Source: Crossaster papposus (Eukaryota > Echinodermata > Asteroidea > Velatida > Solasteridae). Taken from it: a stretch of DNA of 64,000 nucleotides. Shown piece by piece: positions 26,585 through 52,400 of this stretch. Positions within the stretch are counted from its first letter, which is position 1, and each line of letters starts with the position of its first letter. Location: the NCBI GenBank assembly GCA_037893245.1, contig JBAIAA010000238.1:1674001-1738000 (forward strand). The letters are read 5' to 3'. A program made the translations under genes and the position numbers. Under the pieces are notes generated by a model. The model did not search any database and had not been told where the DNA came from. It worked only from the letters and a program-made list of their open reading frames with translations.

Positions 26585-26827
26585 GGGGCCAATTTCATAG
26601 AGCTGCTAAGCACAAAAATTTGCTTAGCACAAAAAAGTCTTGCCCATTAAAAAGAGGTTACCAGCCAAAATTCTACTGATTTTTCATGCTAAGCCAAAAA
26701 CCAGCTGATTATCAATCAAAAACAATAAAGATCACGTGAAAATTTTGTCTTTAACCTTGTTTTTGCCAAGGACAAATTTTCATGCTAAGCACATTTTTGT
26801 GCTTAGCAGCTCTATGAAATTGGCCCC
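26585..26827. mobile_element. MITE, GGGGCCAATTTCATAGAG family, in cassette b 3' UTR
   Basis: GGGGCCAATTTCATAGAGC to GCTCTATGAAATTGGCCCC. Cassette a shows the empty site ACTAGCAGTTGC at about 21,308. Confidence 0.92.
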
Positions 26828-27599
26828 AGTTGCAGCCTGGAATGTGCCAGTTAAGCTACAAAAAGCATTTAAAAGTAGGATATAAACATCCACACAACCA
26901 ACTTGGCGTTTTTGCGTTATATGCGAGAATGAATTTCAGAGTCCACTTTACTCGTGGGCGTTATAAATAACATTTTTCCTTTTCTTTGATAAATCTTCTT
27001 ATGGGTTATTTTAACCATAGAACCAGTTAAAAAAAATACAACAAGAACTGCTACACTGGCCAGTATTTAGCGACTTCCAATTTAACGATACAACCTAGAA
27101 TACAGCCTGCTTGTTTATTAATATGTTCATCAATTGATTCTCTTTTTAGGAATAAAAACAAAACAAAATTGTGCATTTGAATAGCAGAATATAAAATGTT
27201 AGCATAGTTTGAGAAAAAAACAAAAAAACAAGGTCTTTCGTGCTGGAAAAGTTGATTTTGTTTTATCAAAGGCCCTGTACACAAAAATAACTTGCCAGCT
27301 TTTCTGCGTCTCTAATTTTGAAAGGCTTCCAGAGTAATTCTGTTGCATAATCAAATACATTTTGCTACCCAAGTTTTTTTTTAAATGTGCAACCAATTCC
27401 CAACGAGCATTCCTATGAATTAACTTGCTGTGTATATTTGTATAAATGGCACTAAAAATGTAATTTAGATACAAATGAATCTGTTGTTTTTTGTGGTACA
27501 TTTGATATCAAGTGTCTTGTTTAAATTAACCTCTTAAATGTAGAATTGTAGAAATTGTAGAATTACTTACTGAATATGCATGACAACAATGTAACATAA

Positions 27600-27752: not shown

Positions 27753-28446
27753 ACTACAGTTATGCTCGAAATTATGATCGCTATACGCATATGCGTTTAC
27801 GCGTAGCACGCTACGCGTATGATACGTCAATAAAATGTTTCTGCTAAGCTTGTAAATTCTGCTAAGGCATGCTTCTGTGCAAGCCTACGCGTGAGTCTAC
27901 GCGTATTTGCCGTGTTTCGGGAATTTACGTGAGGACGCGTTAATGTGCGAGAGAAGTAGCATTCGCGAAGATACGCGTATCAATAACGTACACCCGTCTA
28001 CGCGTCTTGCACCAAAGAATTGTTTGACAATATTTTGTTACTCCCCACACCCAACAAGAACGAAACGGAGTTAGGTTTTAGCCTTACCTGTATTACGGTA
28101 CGCTGTCCTTATTTGTTTGCAACGATCGTCCTGTAAGTTATAACCCGAATTGGTGATCATAGCGCCCCTTGTTTTCTTGATCAAATCAAATAATAATTAA
28201 AATGTCACCGGCAGAAGTCAATTGTGGATCCCGCTTACAGGGATTGTCTCGTCCTTGTTCCTTTCTGTTCTGCTATTTTTAGGCGACCTGTTTTTTTGTT
28301 CATCTTTCAGTCCTTCATCGGCCACCTCCTATTTACGCAAGGGGATTTGCTCGTCAGTTTGAAAACTAAATGTCGCTTTGTTCAATCAATATTCCCCACT
28401 TTATTTACAATCTGTTATACCAAACAAAACAGGCACAATTAACTGT
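27753..28446 (+). repeat. Left terminal inverted repeat, 694 bp
   Basis: Reverse complement of 38,941-39,634 with only scattered mismatches and the same length. The outer 200 bases are crowded with TACGCGTA-type palindromes, including an exact reverse-strand copy (27,811-27,821) of the 11-bp unit found in the internal array. The inner end repeats, in antisense, the 3' UTR and polyadenylation signal of the BEN-like gene. Confidence 0.92.
28400..28405 (-). terminator. Antisense AATAAA in left inverted repeat
   Basis: TTTATT on the + strand, the mirror copy of the AATAAA at 38,982 in the right repeat. It could terminate transcripts leaving the element to the left, but no intact gene points that way here. 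Confidence 0.4.
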
Positions 28447-28544
28447 CCACAGTATCATAGTTTCTTCAAGTCACAACCAACAAATTTCACAACGTCAACG
28501 GTCACTTCGCCTGGCCGAGTCCAGATAGCCAGCTTGTATAATCT

Positions 28545-28787
28545 GGGCCCAATTTCATAGAGCTGCTAAGCAAAAAAATTTGCTTAGCACAAAAAGTCTT
28601 GCTCATTAAAAACAGGTTATCAAGCAAAATTATACGTGTTTTTTCATGCTAAGCAAAAAAACAGCTGATTATCAATTTAGAACAATGAAGATCAGGGAAA
28701 ATTTTGGTCTGTAACCTTGTTTTTGCCAAGGACAAATTGTCATGCTAAGCAAATGTTTGTGCTAAGCAACTCTATGAAATTGGCCCC
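28545..28787. mobile_element. MITE, GGGGCCAATTTCATAGAG family, inside the transposon
   Basis: Termini read GGGCCCAATTTCATAGAGC and CTCTATGAAATTGGCCCC, an inverted pair. The same family occurs at 26,585, 29,788 and 45,473, with truncated copies at 17,286 and 24,348. Confidence 0.75.
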
Positions 28788-28964
28788 TGCTGATAAGGCA
28801 TGTCTCCGCGTAAGCCAACGCGTAAAGGCGCCTTTCCATATACGCGTGTATTTGTCCGTTGCGCTAACGTTGCATTTGCGATGCGTTTGGCGCGCGTCAT
28901 TTACCTTTCCATAGATACGTAAAGTATGCGCAGGGAATTACGTTAGCAACATCGGGAAAGAAAA

Positions 28965-29271
28965 ATGGCTACCCGGCAAAACCAAATGCGTATATTGATT
29001 GTAGCCGCAGCTTACAGAAAAAGAGTTTATTTTAACCAAAAAAGAAAACACCGGGTGTGGGTTCATGAAATCCTTCAAAGCAGGAAAGAAAATGGGGCCT
29101 ACCATCATCTTGTGAACGAGCTTCAATTTCACGAAGAAAACTTTCGACAATATTTCGGAGTATCAAGAGTGCAGTTTCGGCAACTTCTTTTTTGGGTCGA
29201 GCCTGAAATTACTAAACATGCATCTCGAGAGAACCCATATCTGCCCGTGAACGACTGGCGTTGTGTCTTCG
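28965..29271 (+). CDS. HARBI1-like (PIF/Harbinger) transposase N-terminal exon
   Basis: ATG at 28,965 starts a frame of about 102 codons running into a GTAAGT donor at 29,272. It reads a basic N terminus, then RVWVHEILQSRKENGAYHHL, a helix with NFRQYFGVSRVQFRQLL, and PEITKHASREN. That order (WVH.I...R...G..H.L..EL, F..YF.(M/V)S...F..LL, PEI) is the N-terminal region of HARBI1/PIF nucleases before the DDE domain. I found no downstream exon with the catalytic residues before the minisatellite at 30,151; the nearest acceptor-like site near 29,365 leads to a frame that soon stops. The call is a truncated transposase; family assignment is by pattern recognition only. Confidence 0.72.
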
Positions 29272-29787
29272 GTAAGTACCCTATACTTCCTTAATAATTC
29301 ACTCCCAGCGCATTTTTCAAGTTTTACATCAAGCTAGATTTGTTTCAGTTGTTTTTGTTTCTAGGGCAATATAGAAGTCTTTTACTTTTGACAAAAACCA
29401 ACATACTAGTTACATATGTATTACAACTACTTCAACTACTTTAATTATAGTAAACCAAGTAATTGCCTCCGTTATATACCAAATATACACTGGACATGTG
29501 GTTTGTTGCTATTTTAATGTTCCAAAACTAGTCCTGTCATGGAGTTCTTGGCAAGAAGGCTCAAATCCAACTATTCAATTTATTTGATATATATATTAAA
29601 CTCTCTTTTTTATTACGATGTAGTTTTTAAACATGCTTTAGCTAGGTAATTAAATAGTTAAATAATTTAATAAAAGCTATGTTACGACAATGAAAAATTT
29701 CGTTCAATTTGTTAAGTTTTACACAACTATAAAGTGGATTTGGTGTCCTAAACAATCGCTCAGGACACTAGATTATTGGCTCCAGAG

Positions 29788-30040
29788 CAGGGCCAATTTT
29801 ATAAAACATATGTAGGCCTAAGTACACAAAAATTGCTGAGCACAAACAATTAAGTCTTATTCAGTAAAAACAAGTAACCAGCCAAAACTTCATGTGCTTT
29901 TCTTGCTTAGAAAAACCAGTGAACACCACTCATAAACAACACAGATCACCAGAAAATTTGTTTGTAACCATGTTTTTGCCAAGTAAGAATTTTCAAGCTG
30001 AGCAAATTTGTGTGCTTACATGTTTTTTTAAAACTGGCCT
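29788..30040. mobile_element. MITE, GGGGCCAATTTCATAGAG family, diverged
   Basis: Starts CAGGGCCAATTTTATAAAAC and ends AAAACTGGCCTAG, with the family's internal block (AAACAAGTAACCAGCCAAAA) at reduced identity. It lies inside the Harbinger-like element, between the transposase exon and the minisatellite. Confidence 0.65.
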
Positions 30041-30150
30041 AGGCACGCACACGAGTATAGTCTTTTTAATTCTACATACATGATGTATACGGCTTAAGCT
30101 TACGCGAACGCTTTTGTTTTGCGTAGTATGTGGACTAGGCAGGGTTTACG

Positions 30151-30546
30151 CATACGCGTAGCATACGCGTAGCATACGCGTAGCATACGCGTAGCATACG
30201 CGTAGCATACGCGTAGCATACGCGTAGCATACGCGTAGCATACGCGTAGCATACGCGTAGCATACGCGTAGCATACGCGTAGCATACGCGTAGCATACGC
30301 GTAGCATACGCGTAGCATACGCGTAGCATACGCGTAGCATACGCGTAGCATACGCGTAGCATACGCGTAGCATACGCGTAGCATACGCGTAGCATACGCG
30401 TAGCATACGCGTAGCATACGCGTAGCATACGCGTAGCATACGCGTAGCATACGCGTAGCATACGCGTAGCATACGCGTAGCATACGCGTAGCATACGCGT
30501 AGCATACGCGTAGCATACGCGTAGCATACGCGTAGCATACGCGTAG
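30151..30546. repeat. 11-bp minisatellite, 36 perfect copies
   Basis: The unit CATACGCGTAG is repeated without a visible mismatch over 396 bp. Each unit contains the palindrome TACGCGTA. Because 33 bp is three units, all frames stay open and give long artificial peptides on the minus strand. Related TACGCG-rich sequence flanks the array on both sides and fills the transposon termini. Confidence 0.97.
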
Positions 30547-31103
30547 TATTTTATTTGTATATTGCGTAGGCCGGCTTTACGCGTATGCTTACGCGAACGT
30601 TTTATTTGCATAGGAATTCTTTACCGCAAAATCGACCGCAAAACATTCCGCGCAAAAATAAGTGCACAAGTTGTGCATAGTGCATACATGTAAATTACAT
30701 AGTGCATCAATCTTAAATTTCAATTTGAAATTTATCAATACCAGCATTTTAATGTTTCCTGCAGGGACTTTGAGGGCTTCTTTGAAAGGTAAAAATGTAA
30801 AGGTAAAACAAAAAACTGATTAAATTAGCAAAGATTAAATTATATAGCATGGTGAGTTAGGCCTTAATTTGACAGTAGACTAACAACAAGTTTAGGCATA
30901 GCCTAGGCCTAACCACACTAGCGTAATTATATAAACCAAGACGTTAGCTTAGGCCTATCATGATGTTCTCTGATAAATGTAACTGAATTAACTTCAGCCT
31001 AACCTAGTAACCATGCTAGCATAAGGCAAAATAATAAATGTCACTGTAACTTATGTGTAAGCCTAGCATTAGCCCTAACCCCTCCCCTCTAATAATATCC
31101 TCA

Positions 31104-31191
31104 TTGCAGTTTTAGAGGATTGGGGACTTTCCAGGCCAATGGGTCGACGTCGTAGGCCGGCCATACCCAGCATTAACTTTGTTCAGACAGT
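31104..31191 (+). other. Possible exon inside the transposon, function unknown
   Basis: A pyrimidine-rich stretch and CATTGCAG acceptor precede an open frame reading EDWGLSRPMGRRRRPAIP then SINFVQT before a possible GTATGC donor. I do not recognise the peptide. It could be a leader exon of the BEN-like gene or a relic of the transposase second half. Weak evidence. Confidence 0.25.
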
Positions 31192-31435
31192 ATGCATATA
31201 ATGCAACCCATTATTTAGGCTATGCTCGATATCATCTACACTGATTGCTACTGACTAAAGTACCCAAAGCAGTGATTGGCAGTGGGTTTTGGAGGATAAG
31301 GTTGTTTCACGTTCCAGTTGCGCATGCTCAGTAGAGCGCCCTCTGTAGGCCTACTACATGTAGGAGAGGGGAACACCCATATAAACACGCTATCATTCGG
31401 GTAAGTTGCGTACCCCTTTTTGCGCTGAATCCAAG

Positions 31436-34400
31436 ATGGCCGCGGAACGTGAAACAACCTTATTGGAGAGTGGTCACCCCTTCACTGAACAAATTCAAGA
31501 AATAACGGCTGATTTTGGAGGATTAGCAATGAATTCAATTTTTACATGGTGGCAATTAGGGCCGAGTCCTAAAAGTGAATAACATTAATCTAAAACAATC
31601 ACGTTATTAACTAACCTAAGTTAACTTGTTAGGCCTAACCTTAATTCAGGCTAGTATCAAGTATCATTAACAATAACAGGCATGTGTCTCTGGTAATCTT
31701 TTGAATTAGCTTAACTTTTCAAAAAGTTCAATAGCCTAATAAATTAGGCCCAACTTCAAAGTAGGCTACTTGTATGCCTTACGAGTATCATTTATGTTTG
31801 TGTGCATGCCTAGGTCTAACGTATTGTTGGTGTTGGAATTACACCCAACTTTTTTTTCACAGTTCCTAGAGAGGCACTTTTGAGAAGCATTTTTGACATC
31901 GACTGCAAAACGGCAATTGTCAAGACCAACTCTTTGGAAACGACGGTTCCCCTAAACCAGTTGAAAGAGGGGGACAAAGTTTCTATCAACTGGCAGGGGG
32001 AGTTCCTCTCAGCAAGAGTTCTTGGCCTGTCGGGTAAGCTAACAACTTAAATTCTCGTTAAAATTCATTTTGGTCTGCACATGATAAACATTTATTATAC
32101 CGGGTGTTTGCAAATAACCTTTCAAGTATAGTACATACATGTATAAGATAATTCTGTACAAATTTGTTTATTACTGGAAGTTTTTATTTTATTGTTGCAT
32201 CAATGTTTTTGGCAACGAATTTTAGGATAAGCACACCAAGGTAACCAACCTGAGAAGTTAGTGAACGCGATCAACCGACCCTCAAATTAAAACAATATTG
32301 GGTGTAATGATTAGCCATTGGGCCCATTTGTTTCACACAGATCCAGCTGCTGGTTTGCTTCAATTATTTGAGATTTAATTGTGAACCAACGGCCTAATTA
32401 CGATCAAGATAGGGATCCAGTAAGAAAAAAACAAGCCCTATATGATTTTTTTGATTTTTTGGTAATTTGGTTTGATCTTTTTAGAAATGTTGGTCCATTA
32501 AATAACTTGGTAGGGGTCTCAATTAGCTTGACCTCCAAAAATTAAATTCTTTCTTATTAAAACTTTCAAATCTCTTTAAATTACACTTTTTTCATTATAA
32601 AAAACAGCTGTATCACAGCATGAAGCGCAGAGAAATGTATAACAAATGACCTTTGATGGTAAAAAATAAATTCCCCAATGTTACTTTTAAGGTCAAAGGT
32701 ATTTTAGGTGCATGCTCATTAGTGCAAAGTTCATTGCCTCGTATCTTAATTTACACAAAAATTCAGTTCGGGTTGATTTGATTTGATTTTGATTTATTGA
32801 ATTTTATGCTTTCAATAGCAACAAACCAAATAACCTATAACTATAGGTTTTTTTCCATAGACTAATCATTACACAAATATTGGTTCAATCTGTGTCGTGT
32901 AATCAATAGGGGTGAACTGACACAGAATGACCCCCAGGCTAGATAAATGAAATTACGTGATTAAGGATTAACAGCTTTGTTGAAATTTTCAAAATTTACT
33001 TATCATGAATGTAATTTTTAAGCAATTTGACTGGATTTATTTTAGATGTGCAATTTATAAAACGCAACTTATTTACCTAGATGACAGATGCGTTATAAAT
33101 GAACGAGACCGGCAGTTTGGCGAGGAACTTGATCTGGAGGAGTCTTCCCCACCAAAGAAAAAGACAAGAAGAGAAAAATCGGTAAAATATCATCTTAACA
33201 ATTTAAAAAAATTATGCGGGGTGAACTTTGTGTTTAAACAAATTCACTTGGCCAGGCTGACAATCACTTTCTGATAAATCATGGTAAACATTTTTAGTTG
33301 TTCAGAATGTTTAGAATCCTTCTATTGTTACCAAGAGGTCAAACAATAATAGAAAGAACCGACCATAAAAGGTTCCTTGTAATTGTTAACTTTTGTACTG
33401 TTTCTGCAGGCAAAGAAGGCAAAGGCGGCCAAAAAGGAGGCGGCGGCCAAGGAGGCGGCGGCCAAGGAGGCGGCGGCCAAGAAGGCGGCGGCCAAGGAGG
33501 CGGCGGCCAAGGAGGCGGCGGCCAAGGAGGCGGCGGCCAAGGAGGCGGCGGCCAAGGAGGCGGCGGCCAAGGAGGCGGCGGCCAAGGAGGCGGCGGCCAA
33601 GAAAAAGGCGGCCAAGAAAAAGGCGGCCAAGAAAAAGGCGGTGGACAAGAAGACGCCCATCAAAAAAAATGAGGGCCAAGATGATTGCCTTTTATGACTT
33701 TCCAGGTACGGACTCGGTCGTGGCGGATGACGCCTCGACTGATGATGCCGCGGTACATGAAGTCCTGGCTGACGAAACGGCAGCTGATGGCCCTATGGCC
33801 AATGATGCTGCGGTTGATTCGGCCATGACGGATGATACCGCGGCTAATGACATCGAGGCTGAGGAAGAAGAGAATAGGCCGTTTTTGTTTGATTATAATT
33901 TTTTTGAATTATTTCCAGAGTTAAGACAAAATTTGGAGGGAGCAGCGCAGGGGGAGGGAGCAGCGCAGGGGGAGGGAGCTGCAATGGGGGAGGGAGCTGC
34001 AATGGGGGAGGGAGCAGCAATGGGGGAGGGAGTTGCAATGGGGGAGGGAGCAGCAATGGGGGAGGGTCCAGAGGGAGCAGCGCAGGGGGAGGGAGCAGGG
34101 CAGGGGCAAGAGCAGGGTGCAGGGCAGGGACAGGGAGCAGTGCAAGGGGGGGTACACTGGGAGGACAGGTATAACTTTACTGTTAATTTATTGCAACGGA
34201 TGATAGGCATGGAGAGAAGATGTCTAACTGAAATAACCAGCCTGAAGGCACGCCTTGACAGAATAGAAGGGCTGTATCAGCCCGGAAGGCTACTTGGCCT
34301 ACAAGTTCCGAGGAGACCTGCTCAGGTGCCTGAAATTGAAGGCGAAGACGAAGACGAACTACTAAGGTTGTTCCGCCGGAGCAGCTCTTCTCGCAACTTC

Positions 34401-37400
34401 GCGGTCAACCTTGCTCGAAGAGTATTTAATAACATAAAATTAAGAAACAATCGCACATACCATGAAGGAAGGCGGCAAGGAGCAGCACACAGCCAGCTCA
34501 ATCAGGACAAGATGACTCAAATACGCACTGAGTACATTGAGTACTGAGTAGCATTGTCCAGGTCGCTGATGGGCTAAAAAACAGTTAATTGTGCCTGTTT
34601 TGTTCGGTATAACAGATTGTAAATAAAGTGGGGAATATTGATTGAACAAAGCGACATTTAGTTTTCAAACTGACGAGCGAATCCCCTTGCATAAATAGGA
34701 GGTGGCCGGTGAAGGACTGAAAGATGAATAAAAAAACACTTGAATTTTGATTTTTAATCGTGGGTGAACCATGTTTTAATTTTAAATTGCAAGATAGGGT
34801 GTGACATGTTCACTACATGACTCGAATTAAGATGTGTCAGGCGGCCATTTTGAAGAAAAAAAAAGAAAAAAAAGAAGTGCCTCCTCCTTCCTTAAAAACA
34901 TGTTTTGTTTTTTTATTTGGCCTAATCATTACACAAGTATTGGTTCAATCTGTGTCGTGTAATCAATAGGGGTGAACTGACACAGAATGACCCCCAGGCT
35001 AGATAAATGGAATTACGTGATTAAGGATTAACAGCTTTGTTGAAATTTTCAAAATGTACTTATCATGAATGTAATTTTTCAGCAATTTGACTGGATTTGT
35101 TTTAGATGTGCAATTTATAAAACACAACTTATTTACCTAGATGACAGATGCGTTATAAATGAACGAGACCGGCAGTTTGGCGAAGAACTTGATTTGGAGG
35201 AGTCTTCCCCACCAAAGAAAAAGACAAGAAGAGAACAATCGGTAAAATATCATCTTAACAATTTAAAAATATTATGCGGGGTGAACTTTGTGTGTAAACA
35301 AATTCACTTGGCCAGGCTGACAATCACTTTCTGATAAATCATGGTAAACATTTTTAGTTGTTCAGAATGTTTAGAATCCTTCTATTGTTACCAAGAGGTC
35401 AAACAATAATAACATGAGAATTTTGCAACTTACCATGTCCTAGGGATAAGTTGCATCACATGCTGATGAGATGATGACATAGTACTGATGTCACAAAGTT
35501 GAAAGAACTGACCATAAAAGGTTCCTTGTAATTGTTAACTTTTGTACTGTTTCTGCAGGCAAAGAAGGCAAAGGCGGCCAAAAAGGAGGCGGCGGCCAAG
35601 GAGGTGGCGGCCAAGGAGGCGGCGGCCAAGAAGGTGGCGGCCAAGGAGGCGGCGGCCAAGGAGGCGACGGCCAAGGAGGCGGCGGCCAAGGAGGCGGCGG
35701 CCAAGGAGGCGGCGGCCAAGGAGGCGGCGGCCAAGGAGGCGGCGGCCAAGGAGGCGGCGGCCAAGGAGGCGGCGGCCAAGGAGGCGGCGGCCAAGAAAAA
35801 GGCGGCCAAGAAAAAGGCGGCCAAGAAAAAGGCGGTGGACAAGAAGACGCCCATCAAAAAAAATGAGGGCCAAGATGATTGCCTTTTATGACTTTCCAGG
35901 TACGGACTCGGTCGTGGCGGATGACGCCTCGACTGATGATGCCGCGGTACATGAAGTCCTGGCTGACGAAACGGCAGCTGATGGCCCTATGGCCAATGAT
36001 GCTGCGGTTGATTCGGCCATGACGGATGATACCGCGGCTAATGACATCGAGGCTGAGGAAGAAGAGAATAGGCCGTTTTTGTTTGATTATAATTTTTTTG
36101 AATTATTTCCAGAGTTAAGACAAAATTTGGAGGGAGCAGCGCAGGGGGAGGGAGCAGCGCAGGGGGAGGGAGCTGCAATGGGGGAGGGAGCTGCAATGGG
36201 GGAGGGAGCAGCAATGGGGGAGGGAGTTGCAATGGGGGAGGGAGCAGCAATGGGGGAGGGTCCAGAGGGAGCAGCGCAGGGGGAGGGAGCAGGGCAGGGG
36301 CAAGAGCAGGGTGCAGGGCAGGGACAGGGAGCAGTGCAAGGGGGGGTACACTGGGAGGACAGGTATAACTTTACTGTTAATTTATTGCAACGGATGATAG
36401 GCATGGAGAGAAGATGTCTAACTGAAATAACCAGCCTGAAGGCACGCCTTGACAGAATAGAAGGGCTGTATCAGCCCGGAAGGCTACTTGGCCTACAAGT
36501 TCCGAGGAGACCTGCTCAGGTGCCTGAAATTGAAGGCGAAGACGAAGACGAACTACTAAGGTTGTTCCGCCGGAGCAGCTCTTCTCGCAACTTCGCGGTC
36601 AACCTTGCTCGAAGAGTATTTAATAACATAAAATTAAGAAACAATCGCACATACCATGAAGGAAGGCGGCAAGGAGCAGCACACAGCCAGCTCAATCAGG
36701 ACAAGATGACTCAAATACGCACTGAGTACATTGAGTACTGAGTAGCATTGTCCAGGTCGCTGATGGGCTAAAAAACAGTTAATTGTGCCTGTTTTGTTCG
36801 GTATAACAGATTGTAAATAAAGTGGGGAATATTGATTGAACAAAGCGACATTTAGTTTTCAAACTGACGAGCGAATCCCCTTGCATAAATAGGAGGTGGC
36901 CGGTGAAGGACTGAAAGATGAACAAAAAAACACTTGAATTTTGATTTTTAATCGTGGGTGAACCATGTTTTAATTTTAAATTGCAAGATAGGGTGTGACA
37001 TGTTCACTACATGACTCGAATTAAGATGTGTCAGGCGGCCATTTTGAAGAAAAAAAAAGAAAAAAAAAAAGTGCCTCCTCCTTCCTTAAAAACATGTTTT
37101 GTTTTTTTATTTGGCCTAATCATTACACAAGTATTGGTTCAATCTGTGTCGTGTAATCAATAGGGGTGAACTGACACAGAATGACCCCCAGGCTAGATAA
37201 ATGGAATTACGTGATTAAGGATTAACAGCTTTGTTGAAATTTTCAAAATGTACTTATCATGAATGTAATTTTTCAGCAATTTGACTGGATTTGTTTTAGA
37301 TGTGCAATTTATAAAACACAACTTATTTACCTAGATGACAGATGCGTTATAAATGAACGAGACCGGCAGTTTGGCGAAGAACTTGATTTGGAGGAGTCTT

Positions 37401-38907
37401 CCCCACCAAAGAAAAAGACAAGAAGAGAACAATCGGTAAAATATCATCTTAACAATTTAAAAAAATTATGCGGGGTGAACTTTGTGTGTAAACAAATTCA
37501 CTTGGCCAGGCTGACAATCACTTTCTGATAAATCATGGTAAACATTTTTAGTTGTTCAGAATGTTTAGAATCCTTCTATTGTTACCAAGAGGTCAAACAA
37601 TAATAACATGAGAATTTTGCAACTTACCATGTCCTAGGGATAAGTTGCATCACATGCTGATGAGATGATGACATAGTACTGATGTCACAAAGTTGAAAGA
37701 ACTGACCATAAAAGGTTCCTTGTAATTGTTAACTTTTGTACTGTTTCTGCAGGCAAAGAAGGCAAAGGCGGCCAAAAAGGAGGCGGCGGCCAAGGAGGTG
37801 GCGGCCAAGGAGGCGGCGGCCAGGAAGGCGGCGGCCAAGAAGGCGGCGGCCAAGGAGGCGGCGGCCAAGGAGGCGGCGGCCAAGGAGGCGGCGGCCAAGG
37901 AGGCGGCGGCCAAGGAGGCGGCGGCCAAGGAGGCGGCAGCCAGGGAGGCGGCGGCCAAGGAGGCGGCGGCCAAGGAGGCGGCGGCCAAGGAGGCGGCGGC
38001 CAAGAAGGCGGCGGCCAAGAAAAAGGCGGCGGACAAGAAGACGGCAGCCAAGAAGACGCCCATCAAAAAAATGAGGGCCAAGATGATTGCCTTCTATGAC
38101 TTTCCAGGTACGGACTCGGCCGTGGCGGATGACGCCTCGACTGATGATGCCACGGTACATGAAGTCCTGGCCGACGAAACGGCAGCTGATGGCCCTATGG
38201 CCAATGACGATGCGGTTGATTCGGCCATGACGGATAATACCGCGGCTAATGACATCGAGGCTGAGGAAGAAGAGAATAGGCCGTTTTTGTTTGATTATAA
38301 ATTGTTTGAATTATTTCCAGAGTTGAGAAAAAATTTGGAGGGAGCAGCGCAGGGGGAGGGAGCAGCGCAGGGGGAGGGAGCTGCAATGGGGGAGGGAGCT
38401 GCAATGGGGGGAGGGAGCAGCGCAGGGGGAGGGTCCGGAGGGAGCAGCGCAGGGGGAGGGAGCAGGGTGCAGGGCAGGGACAGGGAGCAGTGCAAGGGGG
38501 GGGGGGGGGGGGTACACTGGGAGGACAGGTATAACTTTACTGTTAATTTATTGCAACAGATAATAGGCATGGAGAGGAGATGTCTAACTGAAATAACCAG
38601 CCTGAAGGCACGCCTTGACAGAATAGAAGGGCTGTATCAGCCCGGAAGGCTACTTGGCCTACAAGTTCCGAGGAGACCTGCTCAGGTGCCTGAAATTGAA
38701 GGCGAAGACGAAGACGAACTACTAAGGTTGTTCCGCCGGAGCAGCTCTTCTCGCAACTTCGCGGTCAACCTTGCTCGAAGAGTATTTAATAACATAAAAT
38801 TAAGAAACAATCGCACATACCATGAAGGAAGGCGGCAAGGAGCAGCACACGGCCAGCTCAATCAGGACAAGATGACTCAAATACGCACTGAGTACACTGA
38901 GTACTGA
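31436..38907 (+). CDS. Transposon-borne BEN-like domain protein with (EAAAK)n tract
   Basis: The gene model is 31436-31574, 31863-32033, 37335-37435 and 37753-38907, all in matching phase, giving 521 aa. Residues 1-46 come from an exon with a good start context (AAGATGG); its donor (A|GTGAAT) is weak. Exon 2 (about 47-103) resembles a small Tudor-like barrel ([20 protein letters not shown]). Exon 3 is acidic then basic ([14 protein letters not shown]). Exon 4 has an alanine/lysine/glutamate helix tract, an acidic segment, Gly/Gln/Glu-rich repeats, a coiled-coil-like stretch ([19 protein letters not shown]) and a C-terminal BEN-like region ([19 protein letters not shown]...[11 protein letters not shown]). 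BEN domains bind DNA or chromatin proteins. Exons 3 and 4 exist three times; exons 1-2 could splice to any unit, but only the third joins helix tract and BEN region in one frame. Confidence 0.65.
32870..34862 (+). repeat. Tandem 3' module, unit 1
   Basis: First of three tandem units, each holding exon 3 (33,081-33,181 here), exon 4 (from 33,410) and a 3' UTR. It lacks an insert of about 100 bases before exon 4 that units 2 and 3 carry (35,411-35,510 in unit 2). The helix-tract frame runs off at a stop at 33,697 because of an A8 run; the BEN-like frame is continuous only with the arginine/proline-rich alternative frame (33,393-34,547). Confidence 0.85.
34921..37112 (+). repeat. Tandem 3' module, unit 2
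   Basis: Unit spacing to unit 3 is 2,194 bp. Exon 3 copy 35,141-35,241, exon 4 copy from 35,559. The helix-tract frame stops at 35,891 after the same A8 run as unit 1, while the BEN-like frame ends at 36,741. From exon 4 onward it is almost identical to unit 1 apart from repeat number. Confidence 0.85.
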
Positions 38908-38940
38908 GTAGCATTGTCCAGGTCGCTGATGGGCTAAAAA
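37115..38940 (+). repeat. Tandem 3' module, unit 3, intact fused frame
   Basis: Exon 3 copy 37,335-37,435 and exon 4 copy 37,753-38,907. Here the A run is seven long, so the EAAAK tract continues in frame into the acidic and BEN-like segments. The Gly-rich part differs from units 1-2 by small G-run length changes that compensate each other, including a long G run near 38,498-38,511. Confidence 0.85.
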
Positions 38941-39634
38941 ACAGTTAATTGTGCCTGTTTTGTTCGGTATAACAGATTGTAAATAAAGTGGGGAATATTG
39001 ATTGAACAAAGCGACATTTAGTTTTCAAACTGACGAGCGAATCCCCTTGCGTAAATAGGAGGTGGCCGATGAAGGACTGAAAGATGAACAAAAAAACAGG
39101 TCGCCTAAAAATAGCAGAACAGAAAGGAACAAGGACGAGACAATCCCTGTAAGCGGGATCCACAATTTACTTCTGCTGGTGACATTTTAATTATTATTTG
39201 ATTTGATCAAGAAAGCAAGGGGCGCCATGATCACCAATTCGGGTTATAACTTACAGGACGATCGTTGCAAACAAATAAGGACAGCGTACCGTAATACAGG
39301 TAAGGCTAAAACCTAACTCCGTTTCGTTCTTGTTGGGTGTGGGGAGTAACAAAATATTGTCAAACAATTCTTTGGTGCAAGAGAGACGTAGACGGGTGTA
39401 CGTTATTGATACGCGTATCTTCGCGAATGCTACTTCTCGCACATTAACGCGTCCTCACGTAAATTCCCGAAACACGGCAAATACGCGTAGACTCACGTGT
39501 AGGCTTACGCGGAAGCATGCCTTAGCAGAATTTACAAGCTTAGCAGAAACATTTTATTGACGTATCATAAGCGTAGCGTGCTACGCATAAACGCATATGC
39601 GTATAGTGATCATAATTTCGAGCATAACTGTAGT
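38941..39634 (+). repeat. Right terminal inverted repeat, 694 bp
   Basis: Inverted partner of 27,753-28,446. Its inner end is the 3' UTR of the BEN-like gene, with AATAAA at 38,982; its outer end is rich in TACGCG motifs and finishes CGAGCATAACTGTAGT. Confidence 0.92.
38982..38987 (+). terminator. AATAAA polyadenylation signal of BEN-like gene
   Basis: AATAAAGTGGGGAATATTG lies 75 bases after the stop of unit 3; the same sequence follows units 1 (about 34,623) and 2 (about 36,817). Confidence 0.6.
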
Positions 39635-40349: not shown

Positions 40350-43300
40350 TCATGATTTTGGTTCGTAATGCCTGTATCTCATGTGTTTCGTCTGCAGACT
40401 TAGTAGTTCCCTGACTTGCTCGGTAACGTCAAGCTGCAAGGTCACTTCTTGGAATACTTGGCTCACAGATTCCTGCAAAGGAAAATCAATGTTCTTGTTT
40501 GTATGAATTAAAAATAGTTATTTGTGCGAGGTTCGGGCAACACGAGATGGAACTGGGCAGAGGTTCAAATCATTAACAAAGAGAATACAATGCTCATTAA
40601 AATACTTGTTGTGGTGCTTCAATCCGACATTTTGTTAATAACTTATGCCTGTTTAAAATTTGCATTTATCAACATGTTGCCAAAGTAAAATGTTAACCAG
40701 TTTGTGCCGGAGGACATCTATGCACGCAAAGTTTTCCCTAGATTCAAAACAGATGACGCATAAACACGCCACGGGCAAGGCCGGAAATCTCTGTCAGCAG
40801 CGAGCAGGGCTGGAAATGCGTGGGTGTGCTTCCCGGCACTATCGGCCTGAACCCGCTTCGGATCAAGTTTCGTTAAAAATAATCCCGGTGCGAACTGGTT
40901 AACAAAGAGGCCTTAGAGTTTTGCACGTCATAAGAAAAAAGGCCAATTTCTTTTACAAAAAAAACGCTTTTATTCCACTGTTTCCTTACTATTTCATAAC
41001 AAATATTACAAATAGAAATCAGAAAATTGACTTTTTTGAATTTTCTTTTCAAATGATGTATCATTTACATATGTAACCCCACCCTATCTCCCCTGGGGGA
41101 AGGATAGTGATACAACCCTGACAACCTAATTATGTGATAAACAGCTTTGAAGTTCAGAAAAGCGTATTATTTCTAAACACAATTGTTTCTCAAAATCGAA
41201 GAAAAAAAACACACTTCTGGGTGACGAACAAATATTACAAATAGAAATCAGAAAATTGACTTTTTTGAATTTTCTTTTCACTGTGGCCTGTGCCAAGTTT
41301 CGTCTAATTTTGCAAGAACGCCTCGCATTTAATTAAAATGCATTACATCAATACCGATGGACAATCACCTCTTCATAGCCAAGTTTCTTGAATAGAGACA
41401 AACTGGGCTGATTCTTGAGCCCAATCTTTGCAACAAAACGGCCGACCTGGAGTTTGGTCACTCCTGAAGAAAAATAGATTTTGGTATTAGGGACAATATA
41501 AAATTATCAATGTTAAAAAAAGAAAAATGTTTTGACACACCCACCCCAAATTTCAATCTTAAAATTATATGTGACCTGAGCGTAAAGTAGTAAAAATTGC
41601 TTCGCCTCCGAATTCCGGTTCACTGAGAAGCAAATAGAAATTAAAGCAAATGGAAAAAGTCGAACTTTTGGGTTCATATCAATCGATTGAATGTTTCTGA
41701 AGCAAAACAGGCATCAAAATATGGCTGGAGATCTCGCATTTGGGAATCTAAGGCCGTGTCCGAAACGAGTGTCTAGAGCTACGGTCTACGTCTACAGCTA
41801 CAGCTACGTCTACGTAGGCGCTATAGGCAAATGGAATTCGGACGTGGCTACGTTAGAGCCTACGGCTAGTTATTGCGCCCCCAAGCGATGCTTGAATTAG
41901 TGTTTGCAAAATTACGATGTAAGAATTTACAACAATTATCATCTGCTAGATTTTACGCAATGTTTGTTTACTCTGGTCGAAATACCTGATGATATTGACG
42001 CATTTGTCGATCTGTTAGTTTCAATTCAATGCACTATCATTAAAAAATAAACGAAAATTTGTTCCAAAATTAACGTTAGTGCTGCCGCCATTTTGTTTTG
42101 CCCGAGCTAGACAACTTCTTTTACGGCTAGATTTTTGTGACGTTGTAGCTGTAGCCGTAGCTGTAGCTCTAGACGGCATTTCGGACAGCGCTACAAAATG
42201 GCCGACGCAGACAATAGCCGTAGCTGTAGCTCTAGACACCCGTTTCGGACACGGCCTAAAATTGCCTTATGCCACAGGCAAAGCCAGGGATTTGAAAAAG
42301 GCCCCAATAAATACCTCGGAGAGTTCACAGCTTCTAATTGGTTGAGACTCGACCACGTGGAGGGCATTATTTTGAAGCAAATTCACCGTTTGTTTCGTTA
42401 AAAAGGTTTATATAAAAGGTAATAATAACATGGCTCCTCACACTGTTATTACCTAATTAATATATTATTTAATATATTACCGTACTGCATCATGAGGATA
42501 AGTGCTTCTTGGCCAATTCCTTTCCTCCTGCAAAATGGTTCTATAAAAGAATTGAACTTGATGAATTAAAAATTTAAGGTACCGGTAGTATATACCAAAT
42601 TACATGTATTAACCCTAACCCCCTAGGCCTTACTTTGGGCTAAAGAACTGCGTACTACAGAATACTACTTAGTATTTTGTAGCATTGGGTCTCTCCGTGA
42701 CTGATGATTGGGTGTGTACTAACAGAGTACAGATACTGCCAACTACAAAATACTAATAGTGGCAATACAGGTCAGTAATACTTACCTGGCAAAAAATGCA
42801 GTAGTCCAGCCTTGACCCAATGTGTCCCAAGTGACAATTTTTGCTGTAGAGTTTAGAACACCTTACACAGCATACATGGGCCATGCACAATCAGCAAGCA
42901 GAGGGACCCAATGCTAAAAAGTACTACGAGTGCAATAAGGGGTGAAGTACCAAATACTAAAAAATACTACAGGCATTGCACACAAGTCAGTGAGAGTACT
43001 GCATACTACTTTTTACTACTAAAAGTAGCATTAGGTAGGGTTAGGGTTAAGAAATATCTTACTTATTTGAAAGTAAATAATGATTGTAGGCATCCAGCAA
43101 AATGATTGCGCTAGATATCCTATAATTGTTTTGAAAAATTTAATTTTATAAACAAAAAAATCAGAACAACATAAGAACCACTGCCCAACGCCGGTTAAAA
43201 ACGAACGTCGCTTTTTTTCCATTTCCTCGGCATACATGATAGTAAAACTTTGAACAGGTCAGTTAAACAATATTTACTATAAAATCTAACCCTCCAACCC

Positions 43301-46300
43301 ACCCATTCGTGATAATTCAAGCAATTACCAACGGTGTGTATCCTACCTTTAAACAAAACACAGGTATTAACAAATCGCCAATTTCATTTTGCAGAAAGCT
43401 TATGATGCAACAAACTTAGCAAGGAAATCTTCTATCTGCAATTTTACCAAATACAATTTGACTTTGTCCTGCTAAATTTGCTAATTGATCCTTCAAATTG
43501 TTACGCTAAGCACCGTTAAATAATTACCTGCAATCATGATTTCTATTTCTGCATATCTGTCATCTGGGTTTACAAAGTATAAGTTGACGTCACCACACAT
43601 ACAATCTAAAAAAAAATAAAAACATATTTATGACCTCCAACGAAACCTGGACAAAGTTGACAATTTTAGATTTTGCTTTTTTCAAATTACATGTATCTAG
43701 GTTCTCAGCTTTAAAATGATTTATCATTTACATATGTACCCCCACCCTATCTTTCCTGGGGGAAAGATTTAGTGATTAAAACCATGACAACCTAATTATG
43801 TGATAAACAGCTTTGAAGTTTAGAAAAGCGTATTATTTCTATACACAATTGTTTCTCAAAATCGACAAAAAAACACATATGTTCAAATTTGGGAAGATTG
43901 TTTTGAACATGTTCAAAGATTTACATCGGCCATGGCGTCCATGGGGATGTCTGAACCTCCTACATTGTATGTACCACCTTTGAATGACCTAGGCAACCAT
44001 TCTGCCTCCTTTGAGCCTCCAACAACGACCTGGCAAATGTTATGGTCGCACAAAGGAGGCACAAAGGAGGCACAAAGGTCGCCATTCCTGTGTAAAGGGG
44101 CTTTAACCTACTTAACACCCGGCTCCATTAAACAATTCTTCATTATTACTTGAACGAAGACAGCACATTACATCAAGCTACTGCAGTGCCATAGTGGCTT
44201 TCAATTGAACGATCCCGGGTTCGAATCCAGCTATGTCCATGGTGGGTTTCCAAATTTAGTTGTTATTGATTAGGGAGGAGAATAAAGCTCCTGACTTAGA
44301 CTAATGAAGGTATACGCCATCATAATTTGCTTCACCCTTGGTAGCCACGTGCAGGACGTGCATCGTAAGATGCCGAATGGCACGTCGCGCTCCATTCGCG
44401 CAAAATAATGAAGAGAAAATACAATAGAGTGACGTCACAGGGGGGTGTTAAAGGTAGGATACACCACATACTAGGGAGCTACACTAGATACACTAGGACG
44501 CCATTCAGAAGTCATAAACATCAGAATGCCGTGTGGCCAGGGATCACACCCAATTTTATGACACAACCTGGGAAGCAACATTGTAGGGATCACTCACTAT
44601 AAAAGAATCCGACTTTTTATTTTATAATACACAATTAAACCACAAGGGAAACTGACTGGGTAAATTTGCATAAATTTCAAAGTGAACAAAGAAATTGTGA
44701 CCTGTCACCACAAAATGAGAGTAAAGTCGCACAATGTAATTCAGAGATATGGCCATCCAAAGTCAAAATATGAAGGGGTGGTCAATTTTGAGATTTTTCG
44801 TAATTTTGAAAGCCCAAGTCCTCCTCTACAAATTCCCATTTTTTGGGTGAGATCAGATGATCGAAAACCTCTTAAATTACGTGATTTTGCATAGTTAGTG
44901 TTTGGAATAAAGTCCATTAGTGGTCTAATTCACATGGTAATTAAATATGCAAATCAGGTCCTCGTAAGTATCCCACGTTTTCAATTTTTTTTGTATGTGT
45001 GGAAAATTTCAAGAAGAAATAATGATAAGAACATAGCCGTTGCTATGCTCAACCGAACTTTACTTGTCCTGTTTTGTAATCTTTCGCGTGTTTTGTTTAA
45101 GATGTTTAAATTAAGTTTTCTCACAAACACGTTTTGTGAAACCCATGACTTTCTAGAGCGCTGTAAAAAGTATTTATCGCAAAGCCCCTAAGTGTTATGT
45201 ATCATTGGAAAGCTCTGTTTCTAAAGAATTTGAAAATACCAATATCTTAATTTTCAATATTTCCGACTTTACTCTCATTTTGTGGTGACAGGTCACAAAT
45301 GGCAAGGTGGGACTCGAACCCGCGACCTCCAGAATACCGAACCGGCGCTCTACCAACTGAGCTACCTTGCCCAATGTTGGCGGTCTCCCAAATTGTCAGT
45401 ATCTTTGTTCAATGAGGATACGACATATTTGTATCTTACAATACACAAATAAACCACAAGAGAAATAGACCAGGGACCAATTTCATAGAGCTGCTAAAGC
45501 ACAACAATTTGCTTAGCACAAAAAAGTTTTGCTCATTAAAAACAGGTTACCAGCCAAAATTCTCCGTGTTTTTCATGCCAAGCAAAAAAACCAGCTGATT
45601 ATCAATCAAAAACAATATAGACCACGTGAAAATTTGATCTGTAACCTTGTTTTTGCCAAGGACACATTTTCATGCTAAGCAAATTTTAGTGCTTAGCAGC
45701 TCTATGAAATTGGCCCTAGATCAATTTTCAATGTTTGCAAGTTAAACATCAAAGGCACATACCTATCTCTTGGTAACCCACATCATTCCATTTCTCCTTC
45801 TGCAGTATGATAAAAGTACATTCTACAAGAAAAGTGACAACAAAAATCAATGTTTTCTTGATTAAAATGGTCATGAAACGAAAAATCGGAGTAACTATAG
45901 AATGCCGGACCACTTAACTACTCTCGGCTTTATTTACCCTAAGACATAGAATGGAGTGGCCTTGTATTCTGTAGTTGTTCCCCAATACCCATAGAATACA
46001 GGGCCACTCCATTATATAAAGCCGAGAGTAGAGGAGTGGCCCTGCATTCTATAGTTGTACCGAAATATCTTCACCACAAGTGCAATAAATTACAATTATC
46101 GGGAACAATATATTTAACCAGTTCGGGCTAATGTTGCGCAAAACCGAATTGAAACCAACCCGACCTGGAAACCGACTTTGAGTTGGGTCTGTTTTTCCAT
46201 CATTTCAGTCGGATCAGGTCGGTTTCGGTTGTCTTTTTGTGATTTTTAGGGGGGGCGGGGGTCGGGTCGGTTAAACTATGTTGTAAAAAAGAAAAAAACT

Positions 46301-48070: not shown

Positions 48071-49407
48071 TGTTGCTAGTACTTGTTGTTGTTGTTTTAA
48101 ACGCTAAGACGGATGGAACACGTGCGTTGAATCGGTGTGTTGTGATGGTTGGGTGCCGATGGTTGCACCCCATTATAAACTCTTGGTGGCGTCCTTCAGA
48201 GAAAAATCAACATGGCAGCCTCCATGCGCTCCATGAGACTGAAACTGCCGAAAGGTGTGAATAATGTGAATAACTTTGTGTAAGTTATTATGATAACTTT
48301 GATTTGACGGGAAGAATTTTGTCCATTTTTAATATGATGATTGTAAGGAGTGATTGTGTACGTGTGTAGTGTAGGGGGTTCTGTAGCCGAGATCAGCCAC
48401 ACTCACAGACTCGGAGTGACTGAGATGAGACTAGTGAGAGCATGGAGGAATAAGAAGACTGTGAGAGGCTTTGCGATGACATTTTATATTCTGACAGGTG
48501 ACACTGTGACAGTAGTACTATAATGAATGTAGCCCCATATAAAATGTGGCTTAAATATACTGGACTTCCGTTTAATTTGTGAACCACACGGCGGCCATGT
48601 CATGTGTAAAATGATGGGAAGGTTCCAAAAAGATAAACATGGATGAAGAAAGGGTACAAAAACCACAATTTAGGCTTTTGTTTTCACTCAAAATTCATTC
48701 CCGACAGTGAGTTACTGACTTTGTTAATGTTCAAAAACTTGGTGTCTAATTTGCAAGACGGCACTACTGAAAAAAACCTGTTGCAATAGAATTATACTTT
48801 AGGTTGATAAAGTCATTTTGGAATGATAAAAAAAACCTTGAGTTTCACTCTAATTTGATCAAAACTTGAGCAGGGCCCGTAGATACACAATCGCCGATAT
48901 TTTCGTCTTCGCTGGTGACGTGTTAAATCTGTCGTTCGTTTTTGAATCCCAGAAAAACTTTGCGGGTATACACAGGATACACCATTTGCAGATATCGAAA
49001 GATTTTACTACCGGCAAATTAATAAAAAAGTATCTTATTTATTTGAAAGTAAAAGGATTGCGCTAAATATCCAGTAATTGTTCCGAAAAAATCGAATTAA
49101 AAAGAACAAATTCAAGATCGCCGGACGGCGATCGCGAAAAAAACAAAGACAACAAAAGAACAACTGCCCCACGACGGGTGAAAACAAACACCATTTTTTT
49201 TTGCTTTTTTCAGCATCTATGATTTAAAAACTTCAGACAGGTCAGTAAAACGATATTTACTATAAAATACAACCCCCTAAAATAAAAATCCACCCATTCA
49301 TGATAATGCAAACAATTTTTTTTTTTCAATGGTGTATCCTACCTTTAATACAGTGATGAAATGTATGAACCACGATTTGTTCTGCTTTGTTCTTTATCTG
49401 ACCTAGT
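48071..49407. promoter_or_regulatory. Shared head-to-head region between NAT9 and YARS2
   Basis: The two start codons diverge with 1,337 bases between them. The NAT9-proximal 600 bases are repeat-poor and contain GCGGCCATG and CACGTG motifs; a GGTAGGATACACC-family MITE (48,971-49,348) sits next to YARS2 exon 1. Whether one bidirectional promoter serves both genes is inference. CTTTATCTGACCTAG just before the YARS2 ATG also resembles a splice acceptor, so a 5' UTR exon may lie in this interval. Confidence 0.5.
48971..49348. mobile_element. MITE, GGTAGGATACACC family
   Basis: CAGGATACACCATTTGCAG to AATGGTGTATCCTACCTTTAA with the CGCCGGACGGCGATCGCG palindrome inside. Confidence 0.82.
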
Positions 49408-52400
49408 ATGTTTGTTCATGGGAAGCTGATGTGCAGAGGCAGTAGGCATGTTGTAGCCTCATTGACCAGCCAGTATTTACCACAGAGGAGATGCTACAGC
49501 AGTCAACGCAATATCTTGGCCCTGAGGGAGCGAGGAATCATTCAAAACATCTTCCCAGACACAAGGTGAATGAAATATTGCACTCCTAGTCCTACAAATT
49601 AGGATTTCAGTTGAGAAAATGAGAAAACCGCAATCATTAAAGTTTTATTTTAAAAGTGATTATTTCATGTGTAGTTTTATAAAATATACATTACATATGT
49701 GACCAAGCATCCACGACAAAAAGGCTGTAAAGTTGCCAGAGCTTATTTTGAGAAAAGGACCATACAAATTATTTGAAAAAAACCCAGAAAAAAACGTATT
49801 TTCATATTCAGTGTTACTTGTTGTAGCTAACCATAAATACCAACTATGTCTTGTAATACATCATTTTAAAGCTTATTTCTTGTAGATTTCATTTCTCTAA
49901 ATATCTCAAAATGTCAAGATGGCTACTTTACAGCCCTTTCGTCGTGGACGATCACATACATGTAACCAACAAAATTAACAGGATATGCAGTTTTTCTATA
50001 CGTTTATCAATACATTTTCTTTCAGTGACCTTCCCAATGTGTTGAGTTCTGGCCCACAGTGCATCTACTGCGGCTTCGACCCAACAGCAGACAGTCTTCA
50101 TATTGGTAACCTCCTAGCCATCGTTGCATTGCTACATTGCCAGAGGGCAGGACACAAACCAATTGCTTTGGTAAGCATAGGAGGGGAATGACCCTATTTT
50201 GGTGGAGAAACATAATGAAAGGTAGGATACACCATTGGCGATTGCTTAAATTATCACGACTAGGGGGATTTGGGTGGTTGTGTTTTATAGTATTTTTTTT
50301 AACTCGCCTGTCCGAAGTTTTATGGATGCCGAGAAAAGCAAGAAAAACAGCGTTTGTTTTCAACCGGCGTCGGGCAGTGGTTCTTATGTTGTTCTCTTTT
50401 TTCTTCAAATGATCTGTTGTCCCTTTAACCAGTTTGTGCCGGATGACGTATATAAACGCAAAGTTTTCCCCAAATTCAAAATGGATGACGCATAAAAACG
50501 CCAAGTTCAAGTTCGGAAATGTCTGCCAGCAGCGAGCAAGGCCGGAAATGCATGGGTGTGCTTCCCGGCACTATCGGCCTGAACCCGCTTCGGAACGAGT
50601 TTCGTTAAAAATAATCCCGCCCCTCGGCTCGGTGATGTTAAAATAATCCCGGCGCGAACTGGTTAAACTAGAAGATGGGCACTCGGTAAAGTACAGACCT
50701 CTACCCCAACCGCAAAAATGTCCAATGTTAAACAATTATTCAAAGTTTAACATTTAATCCTCCTTCACCCATAAGCTATCCACTCACCAAGTTTTGTTAA
50801 AATCTCTTCAGTAGTTTTTCTGTAATCCCGCTAACAAACAGACAAACAAATAGACGGACAGGGGTAAATACAGAACCTCTGCCATCAGAGACGGACAGAC
50901 TAAACAGAAAAGTTGCACCGTTTACCCAGTTCGCGCCGGGATTATTTTAACATCACCGAGCCGACGCGCGAGATTATTTTTAACGAAACTCGATCCGAAG
51001 CGGGTTCAGGCCGATGGTACCGGGAAGCACACCCACGCCTTTCCGGCCTTGCTCGCTGCTGACAGACATTTCCGGCCTTGCTCGTGACGTGTGTATGCAT
51101 CATCCGTTTTAAATCTCAGGAAAACTTTTCGTGTGTATATACGTCCTCCGGCGCGAACGGGTTAATAATGCACACAAAAAAGGGAAACTGACTAGGTAAA
51201 TTTGCATACATTTCAAAGTGAACAAAGAAATTAATCATGTTCAGATTGGTGGTGCAACTGCACTGATAGGAGATCCAAGTGGGAAGACAACAGAAAGAGC
51301 ACCCCTGGATTCAACAGTGGTACAGTCCAATGCTGTCTCCATCACAAGTAGCCTACAGAGAATCTTCACAAATCATGAGAGGTACTTTTGGAAAGAGGAT
51401 AGACAGCTTCCAGAAATCAGGTGAGATATTGTTGGTATCCTGTCCACTGTGGCCACCTGTCCGTTGTGGCCATCTGTCCGTTGTGGCCACCTGTCCGTTG
51501 CGGCCACCTGTCTGATGTGGCCACCTTCCTATTTTGGCCACCTTTCCATTTTGACCACCTTTCCATTTTGACCACCTTTCCATTTTGACCGCCTTTCCAT
51601 TTTGACCACCTGTCTATTGCGGCAACCTGTCCATTGTGACAACCTGTCTATTGCGGCTACCTGTCTATTGTGGCCGCCTGTCTGTTGCGGCTGCCTGTCT
51701 GTTCCGGCCACCTGTCTGTTCCGGCCACCTGTCCATTCCGGCCACCTGTCCATTCCGGCCACCTGTCCATTCCGGCCACCTGTCCATGCGGCCACACATG
51801 TTTGTTGTGTGGCCACACCCGTTTTGTTGTGTGGCCACACCCGTTTTGTTGTGTGGCCACACCCGTTTTGTTGTGTGGCCACACCCGTTTTGTTGTGTGG
51901 CCACACCCGTTTTGTTGTGTGGCCACACCCGTTTTGTTGTGTGGCCACACCCGTTTTGTTGTGTGGCCACACCCGTTTTGTTGTGTGGCCACACCCGTTT
52001 TGTTGTGTGGCCACACCCGTCTTGTTGTGTGGCCACACCCGTCTTGTTGTGTGGCCACACCCGTCTTGTTGTGTGGCCACACCCGTCTTGTTGTGTGGCC
52101 ACACCCGTCTTGTTGTGTGGCCACACCCGTCTTGTTGTGTGGCCACACCCGTCTTGTTGTGTGGCCACACCCGTCTTGTTGTGTGGCCACACCCGTCTTG
52201 TTGTGTGGCCACACCCATCTTGTTGTGTGGCCACACCCGTCTTGTTGTGTGGCCACACCCGTTTTGTTGTGTGGCCACACCTGTCTGTTGTTTGGCCACC
52301 TGTCTGTTGTGTGGCGGTTGTGTAGGATTAATTTGACATTGACCAGGCCCAGGCGCGGGATTGTTTTTCACGAACTTCGATCCGAGACTGGTTCAGGCCG

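Follow-up and report, generated by a model that had tools for sequence, protein, structure and literature searches.

The 64,000-nucleotide stretch of Crossaster papposus DNA analysed here (hereafter the window; C238:1674001–1738000 in a host assembly of 1.02 Gb and 1841 contigs) contains a transposon that is probably an internally rearranged, transposase-less member of a Tc1/mariner-type family; the complete form of this family measures ca. 38 kb and has two genes, one for a transposase with DD34E spacing and one, with several exons, for a BEN-fold protein. A preliminary description, made from the sequence alone, had regarded it as a Harbinger-type transposon with a BEN-like gene as cargo. An inverted-repeat DNA transposon carrying a BEN-type gene was borne out by copies sharing both the ends and the gene; the Harbinger assignment of the outer element was contradicted by its TA duplication, its CAGT ends and the DD34E transposase of the 38-kb copies. 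The two-gene reading is favoured because the ends, the BEN gene and motif clusters are common to the copies, both genes are present in two near-identical copies, a 2-bp duplication is supported by length at one site, and BEN-gene exons are linked to transposase relatives elsewhere.

Ends and Copies of the Element

The terminal inverted repeats are located in the window as follows:

27753–28446, + strand: left terminal inverted repeat, with its end at 27755 (TACAGTTATG...), TA as the target duplication and seven ACGCGT sites at 27799–28000
38941–39634, − strand: right terminal inverted repeat, with its end at 39632, adjoining the 3′ side of the BEN-like gene

The equal length reported for these repeats proved real: both measured 694 bp, with an ungapped identity of 641/694, or 97% by BLAST, in which compensating indels are allowed. 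A BLAST search of the host assembly gave 52 matches among those listed, and the end pattern (≤ 2 mismatches) matched 35 times, compared with two matches for the reversed pattern. These results indicate that the repeats are a dispersed family and contradict a local segmental inversion, an origin that the preliminary description had considered. Family copies agree inward from 27755 and 39632 (TACAG.../...CTGTA), and position 27755 is therefore taken as the element end. Paired ends lay 1.5 kb (C479) to 37.6 kb (C783) apart in the 11 loci compared. Judged by their 300-bp flanks, C238 (the window copy) and C125 represent a single insertion site; C165a, C165b and C305 share another. The two copies of the window insertion (C238 and C125:496000–509000) differ in length (11.9 vs. 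8.3 kb), in the number of BEN units and in the length of an 11-bp array, indicating that this element is internally unstable after insertion. The window copy is likely a derivative without a transposase, in which the BEN gene has been triplicated and truncated and inside which a miniature inverted-repeat transposable element (MITE) and a Harbinger fragment are found.

Copies Carrying Both Genes

The preliminary description proposed a search of the host assembly for full-length relatives with an intact DDE nuclease. Two 38-kb copies with a transposase were found, but the enzyme is of the DDE_3 type and not the Harbinger nuclease DDE_Tnp_4. The copy at C783:1081438–1119081 has inverted repeats of 4.2 kb (99.5% identical), a BEN gene collinear with window positions 29775–34535, and an intact transposase open reading frame (365 codons from stop to stop; 338 residues when counted from MARFSS) that matched DDE_3 at 9.2e-19, with the DD34E spacing counted by eye. 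C456 carries the same element, with aligned segments of 22,254 and 17,046 bases that are 99.88% and 99.83% identical, respectively. The flank comparison covered the left flank of C456 (1,363 bp): nothing better than E 0.04 was found against either C783 flank, and the last 150 bases had a full match only to C456 itself among the rows scored. As the near-identical elements have different flanks, we interpret them as a single 38-kb unit inserted at two places, which would imply recent movement. Transposase and BEN gene were found within the same inverted repeats in C783 and C456 only.

A 1.46-kb high-copy repeat (L013 2000–3460 = C783:1081999–1083459) was observed on both arms of C783, C456, C258, C314 and C87, and also by the end of C45; the element arms appear to have been kept alike by copying. 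The 1.46-kb stretch common to the C783 inverted repeats and the surroundings of C412 was rejected as shared ends, being a high-copy repeat with 1290 first-look candidates.

Target Site and Class

TA adjoins CAG(T/A) at the element ends compared, and CAGT is the typical start of a Tc1 element. When the flanks of C314 were joined with a single TA, they aligned across the junction with repeat copies (best 40 of 1125 first-look candidates), and the lengths of the two empty-site copies read fit a 2-bp duplication. For C783, whose flanks were again joined with a single TA, 6 of the 40 rows spanned the junction, at 69–71%. C213 and C479 were included in the empty-site query and were not among the 40 rows scored. 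The TA target duplication of Tc1/mariner elements was thus recovered, and the DDE_3/DD34E transposase lies inside the ends in the two 38-kb copies. PIF/Harbinger elements have a 3-bp target duplication (PMC9710019); in the outer element, one site fits 2 bp and no common 3-bp flanks were found. The only trace of a DDE_Tnp_4 nuclease in the outer element was a nested exon 1, which is absent from nine other loci. The TA duplication, the CAGT ends and the DD34E transposase of the 38-kb copies therefore point to Tc1/mariner features of the outer element. Its likeness to the Tc1 family (DD34E, IS630/Tc1/mariner; e.g., Minos, with long inverted repeats) extends to DDE_3, DD34E, the TA duplication and the CAGT ends. 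It differs from that family in its size of up to 38 kb (the usual Tc1 size is ca. 1.6 kb), the length of its inverted repeats (0.15–4.2 kb) and the presence of a second, multi-exon BEN-fold gene.

Linkage Between the BEN Gene and the Transposase

Loci holding distant BEN-like or N-domain exons coincide with relatives of the C783 transposase. Over the 121 transposase matches listed, such an exon lay within 12 kb of 7 of the 16 matches at ≥ 56% identity, 1 of the 22 at 40%–56% and none of the 83 at < 40%, and the linked exon and transposase were on the same strand in all eight loci. A binomial estimate from a hand list (11 long transposase matches, 32 exon places) placed chance linkage at ca. 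4e-20, or 1e-14 with near-duplicate contigs merged; near-copies make both values too small, and weight is therefore placed on the contrast between identity classes. The BEN gene precedes the transposase in C783, C456, C412, C125, C117 and C599. In a transposase tree of 45 rows (five from this genome and 40 of the 120 database matches listed), C783, C412, C117, C616 and C1093 grouped with three database proteins in a single clade (support 100/100). The transposases of C783, C412 and C1093 differ by 36%–44%, suggesting that the linkage is old.

A ca. 390-bp dispersed repeat occurs in the window in both orientations (4837–5225, 9049–9384, 43047–43354, 48975–49348, 54859–55240 and 61052–61419) and also flanks the C412 gene pair on either side, where it mimics terminal repeats. 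An inverted pair in C412 (2887651/2898894) was accordingly rejected as terminal repeats, being a dispersed repeat with many copies in the window.

CGCG Arrays

30150–30546, + strand: 11-bp-period array, 36 copies of GCATACGCGTA, upstream of the BEN-like gene; proposed binding array of the BEN protein

The window element contains 49 ACGCGT sites, 36 of which belong to the 11-bp array; the remaining 52 kb of the window contain three. The 13 sites of the window element beyond the array compare with a Markov mean of 1.0; for C314 the figures are 18 and 1.2. All 11 TACAG copies counted were enriched in this motif, with 3–10 sites per terminal 600 bp. C783 has ACGCG clusters at its two ends, ahead of the BEN gene, within every one of six ca. 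1.3-kb tandem units and immediately before the transposase; the last comprises seven ACGCGW in ca. 103 bp, compared with a total of nine in the rest of the window and ≤ 2 per 110 bp there. CGCG sites also lie ca. 68–120 bp before the transposase start in C412, C117 and C616, with spacings of 11, 19, 11 and 11, and C412 has five CGCG before the transposase. CGCG sites, frequently spaced by roughly one turn of the helix, are the putative targets of the BEN protein.

Structure and Affiliation of the BEN-Like Gene

31863–32033, + strand: exon of the small N-terminal domain, 86% identical in C783 and 49% in C412 (limits by eye)
33047–33183, + strand: exon with a basic, nuclear-signal-like stretch, one per unit (limits by eye)
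33390–34544, + strand: last exon of unit 1, with lysine/alanine repeats (other frame), acidic part, Gly/Gln-rich repeats and truncated BEN (34170–34544)
35539–36738, + strand: last exon of unit 2, a duplicate, with lysine-rich part in the other frame and truncated BEN
37726–38904, + strand: last exon of unit 3, a duplicate, with lysine-rich and BEN parts in one frame; BEN truncated

The BEN-like gene of the preliminary description is real, multi-exon and assignable to BEN by profile and fold; it nevertheless falls under the Pfam BEN cut-off, is truncated, and has its 3′ half triplicated. The three units (from 32847, 34907 and 37101) are 97%–99% identical. A change in A-run length separates units 1 and 2 from unit 3, and the lysine-rich and BEN-like parts of the former two therefore lie in different frames. 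With the curated Pfam cut-off (23.2 bits) as the detection threshold, no family row from the C. papposus genome reached BEN: none of the seven rows of alignment A1 matched, and the single match among the seven of A2 was the database protein P0001 (0.0031, 18.1 bits). Fold comparison recovered the five-helix BEN fold, with BEND3 and BANP as the best matches, and the proposed BEN homology of the cargo gene is based on these profile and fold comparisons. As a protein-search query, the window BEN piece gave no matches; a profile search with the BEN family found three database proteins, and none of 28 pattern matches in viral contigs was confirmed. The lysine-rich part of unit 3 matched Pfam HC2 (histone H1-like, 8.9e-13), and for the N-terminal domain neither Pfam nor PDB gave a match with a useful E-value. 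The predicted protein would thus consist of a small N-terminal domain, a basic stretch, a histone-H1-like lysine-rich part, an acidic and Gly/Gln-rich linker, and a C-terminal BEN domain. Between C783 and the window copy, the ratio of nonsynonymous to synonymous substitution rates (dN/dS) of the BEN domain was ca. 0.42. Genome scans with PF10523 (12 BEN matches) and PF13359 (many Harbinger nucleases; best 150 of 1818 candidates) placed none of these matches within a TACAG element examined.

Nested Harbinger Fragment and MITEs

28826–29775, + strand: nested fragment of an unrelated Harbinger, comprising the left end of that element together with exon 1 and an intron of its nuclease gene
28965–29270, + strand: HARBI1-like N-terminal exon within this fragment, open frame
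28545–28790, unstranded: palindromic MITE (GGGCCCAATTTCATAGAG...), absent at the same point in C125, the second copy of the insertion

The HARBI1-like exon recognised earlier near 29 kb is an open frame and does belong to a Harbinger nuclease. The exon alone had no Pfam match, but in its copy on C803 (90% identical) the next exon matched DDE_Tnp_4 at 2.5e-19; close copies were also found on C125, C545 and C616. The C803 element has a MADF/Myb gene in reverse orientation (1.4e-4, 22.6 bits; cut-off 22), AGGCGCCTTTCCATATAC at both ends and TTA on each side, as read from the ends. The fragment's own Harbinger end (AGGCGCCTTTCCATATACGCG) is found at the same boundary in C803 and C545, and the left boundary of the C803 element is where homology begins in the window, C125 and C545. 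No matches to the catalytic exons, MADF gene or right end of C803 were found in the window. Because this boundary is common to C803, C125 and C545, and C803 is intact with DDE_Tnp_4 and MADF/Myb, the segment from 28826 to about 29775 is read as a piece of an ordinary two-gene Harbinger and an unrelated nested insertion; its PIF/Harbinger membership is assigned through the ends, nuclease, MADF/Myb gene and 3-bp TTA duplication of C803. Among 10 family loci compared with the window, the Harbinger stretch was present only in C125, the same insertion, and was absent from C165a, C165b, C305, C87, C314, C783, C456, C258 and C213 (seven insertion sites; C456 compared up to 606999 only).

MITE-like palindromes (GGGCCCAATTTCATAGAG...) were observed in or beside the element at 26677–26832, 28545–28790 and 29790–30031. 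A DDE_Tnp_4 match at G000:C1288:90670–91176 lies in a 12,957-residue open frame, possibly masked sequence (N runs) read as open.

Alternative Explanations

The preliminary description proposed that the HARBI1-like exon and the BEN gene are parts of one Harbinger transposon in which the BEN protein could take the place of the Myb partner. Both do lie in the same orientation within the same inverted repeats, here and in C125, but these two copies represent a single insertion site. A Harbinger end of its own accompanies the exon, the nine other family loci lack the exon, an intact Harbinger with a MADF partner and a TTA duplication exists, and the only measurable target duplication of the outer element fits 2 bp, not 3. 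As C803 retains its MADF/Myb partner, BEN replaces no Myb there, and the substitution was rejected; this explanation is extremely improbable. Segmental duplication spreading one locus could account for BEN–Tc1 linkage, given that C412/C125 and C117 are alike over the several kb compared. The 36%–44% divergence of the transposases, together with the likeness of C783 and C456 within their ends and not in the flank read, makes it quite improbable as the sole cause.

A weightier, though still unlikely, alternative is that the Tc1 transposase is a chance nested insertion and that the TACAG family is non-autonomous, having captured a host BEN gene, and is mobilised by a transposase elsewhere. Transposon capture of host genes is common, and the shorter family copies searched lack a transposase. 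A 41-bp inverted pair (85%) also flanks the C783 transposase frame at distances of 1.2 and 2.9 kb; it has no CAGT start, a piece lies outside the C258 element, and it was rejected as transposase ends in favour of a dispersed repeat. Against chance nesting, no inverted repeats were found within 1.5 kb of the transposase frame in seven copies (L045–L051, some near-duplicates), and no TACAG/CTGTA pair around the C783 frame agreed at more than 13 of 25 positions. At other loci, relatives of the transposase are accompanied by BEN-gene exons; CGCG clusters precede both genes and occupy the ends, which are Tc1-like and adjoin TA. Several observations nonetheless weigh against the two-gene Tc1/mariner reading. 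The empty-site dinucleotide of C314 is TC, not TA, in both copies read; seven other rows begin right at the C783 junction, weakening that empty site; and the joined flanks of C258 matched only its own two halves. No trace of a transposase was found in the other nine family loci searched or in the window. Its restriction to the 38-kb form within the TACAG family leaves some room for a nested Tc1 element that has lost its ends. C616 and C1616 have a transposase and no BEN match on their contigs, which, with the family loci lacking a transposase, counts against strict pairing. In C1093 and C45 the transposase comes first, and C45 has the N-domain exon only. No terminal repeats were found for C412 within 26.5 kb, its locus is not rich in ACGCGT (one in 18 kb), and C1093 has one ACGCG before the transposase and no cluster. 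In addition, all three window units end before the last BEN helix, and BEN-domain dN/dS is ca. 1.0 between C783 and C87.

Possible Mechanism and Significance

Under the two-gene Tc1/mariner reading, the transposase would cut at the TACAG ends, and the BEN protein with its lysine-rich tail would bind the CGCG arrays at the ends and in the regions that precede the two genes. The bound protein might help bring the distant ends together, regulate the two genes, or shield the arrays from silencing and protect expression, in parallel with the accessory DNA-binding proteins of other two-component elements. A giant two-gene Tc1/mariner lineage, in which an obligate BEN partner recognises helically phased ACGCG arrays in the ends and ahead of the two genes, acts both in end synapsis and in self-regulation or anti-silencing, and allows a Tc1-type element to reach 38 kb and remain mobile, is a tentative proposal with slightly less than an even chance of being correct.

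En/Spm TnpA and Mutator MURB are accessory proteins thought to bind repeated subterminal motifs. The role proposed here for a second protein would resemble theirs, whereas the BEN domain and the transposase superfamily differ. BEND3 and BANP, host CGCG-binding BEN proteins, share the fold and the CGCG-type target motif; the present gene differs in lying inside a transposon, in its repeats and in its N-terminal domain. Animal Tc1/mariner elements are generally regarded as small, one-gene and self-sufficient. If true, a recently mobile 38-kb form with a BEN gene would mean that Tc1/mariner can adopt the two-component plan of Harbinger, En/Spm and Mutator. Such a form might also supply hosts with BEN proteins, and it would provide a natural system for testing whether CGCG-binding BEN domains act in transposition or in escape from silencing. 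Titles and abstracts listed by searches of open-licence papers contained no report linking BEN to Harbinger, Tc1/mariner, transposases or domesticated transposons. PIF/Harbinger elements (PMC9710019) share the plan of a nuclease accompanied by a second, DNA-binding protein with subterminal motifs as its possible targets, and differ from the outer element in nuclease type, ends and target duplication. Ciliate Tec/TBE elements, as described in a passage of PMC7325037, belong to the Tc1/mariner group and share with the present element DD34E, inverted repeats of ca. 700 bp and extra open reading frames; they differ in their ciliate hosts and in extra genes that include a site-specific recombinase, and the passage does not mention a BEN protein.

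Other Features of the Window

Two adjoining tandem arrays occupy 51439–52299, with a 17-bp unit (21 copies) and a 22-bp unit (23 copies). A tRNA-Thr (GGT) gene is located at 45299–45372, in agreement with Rfam.

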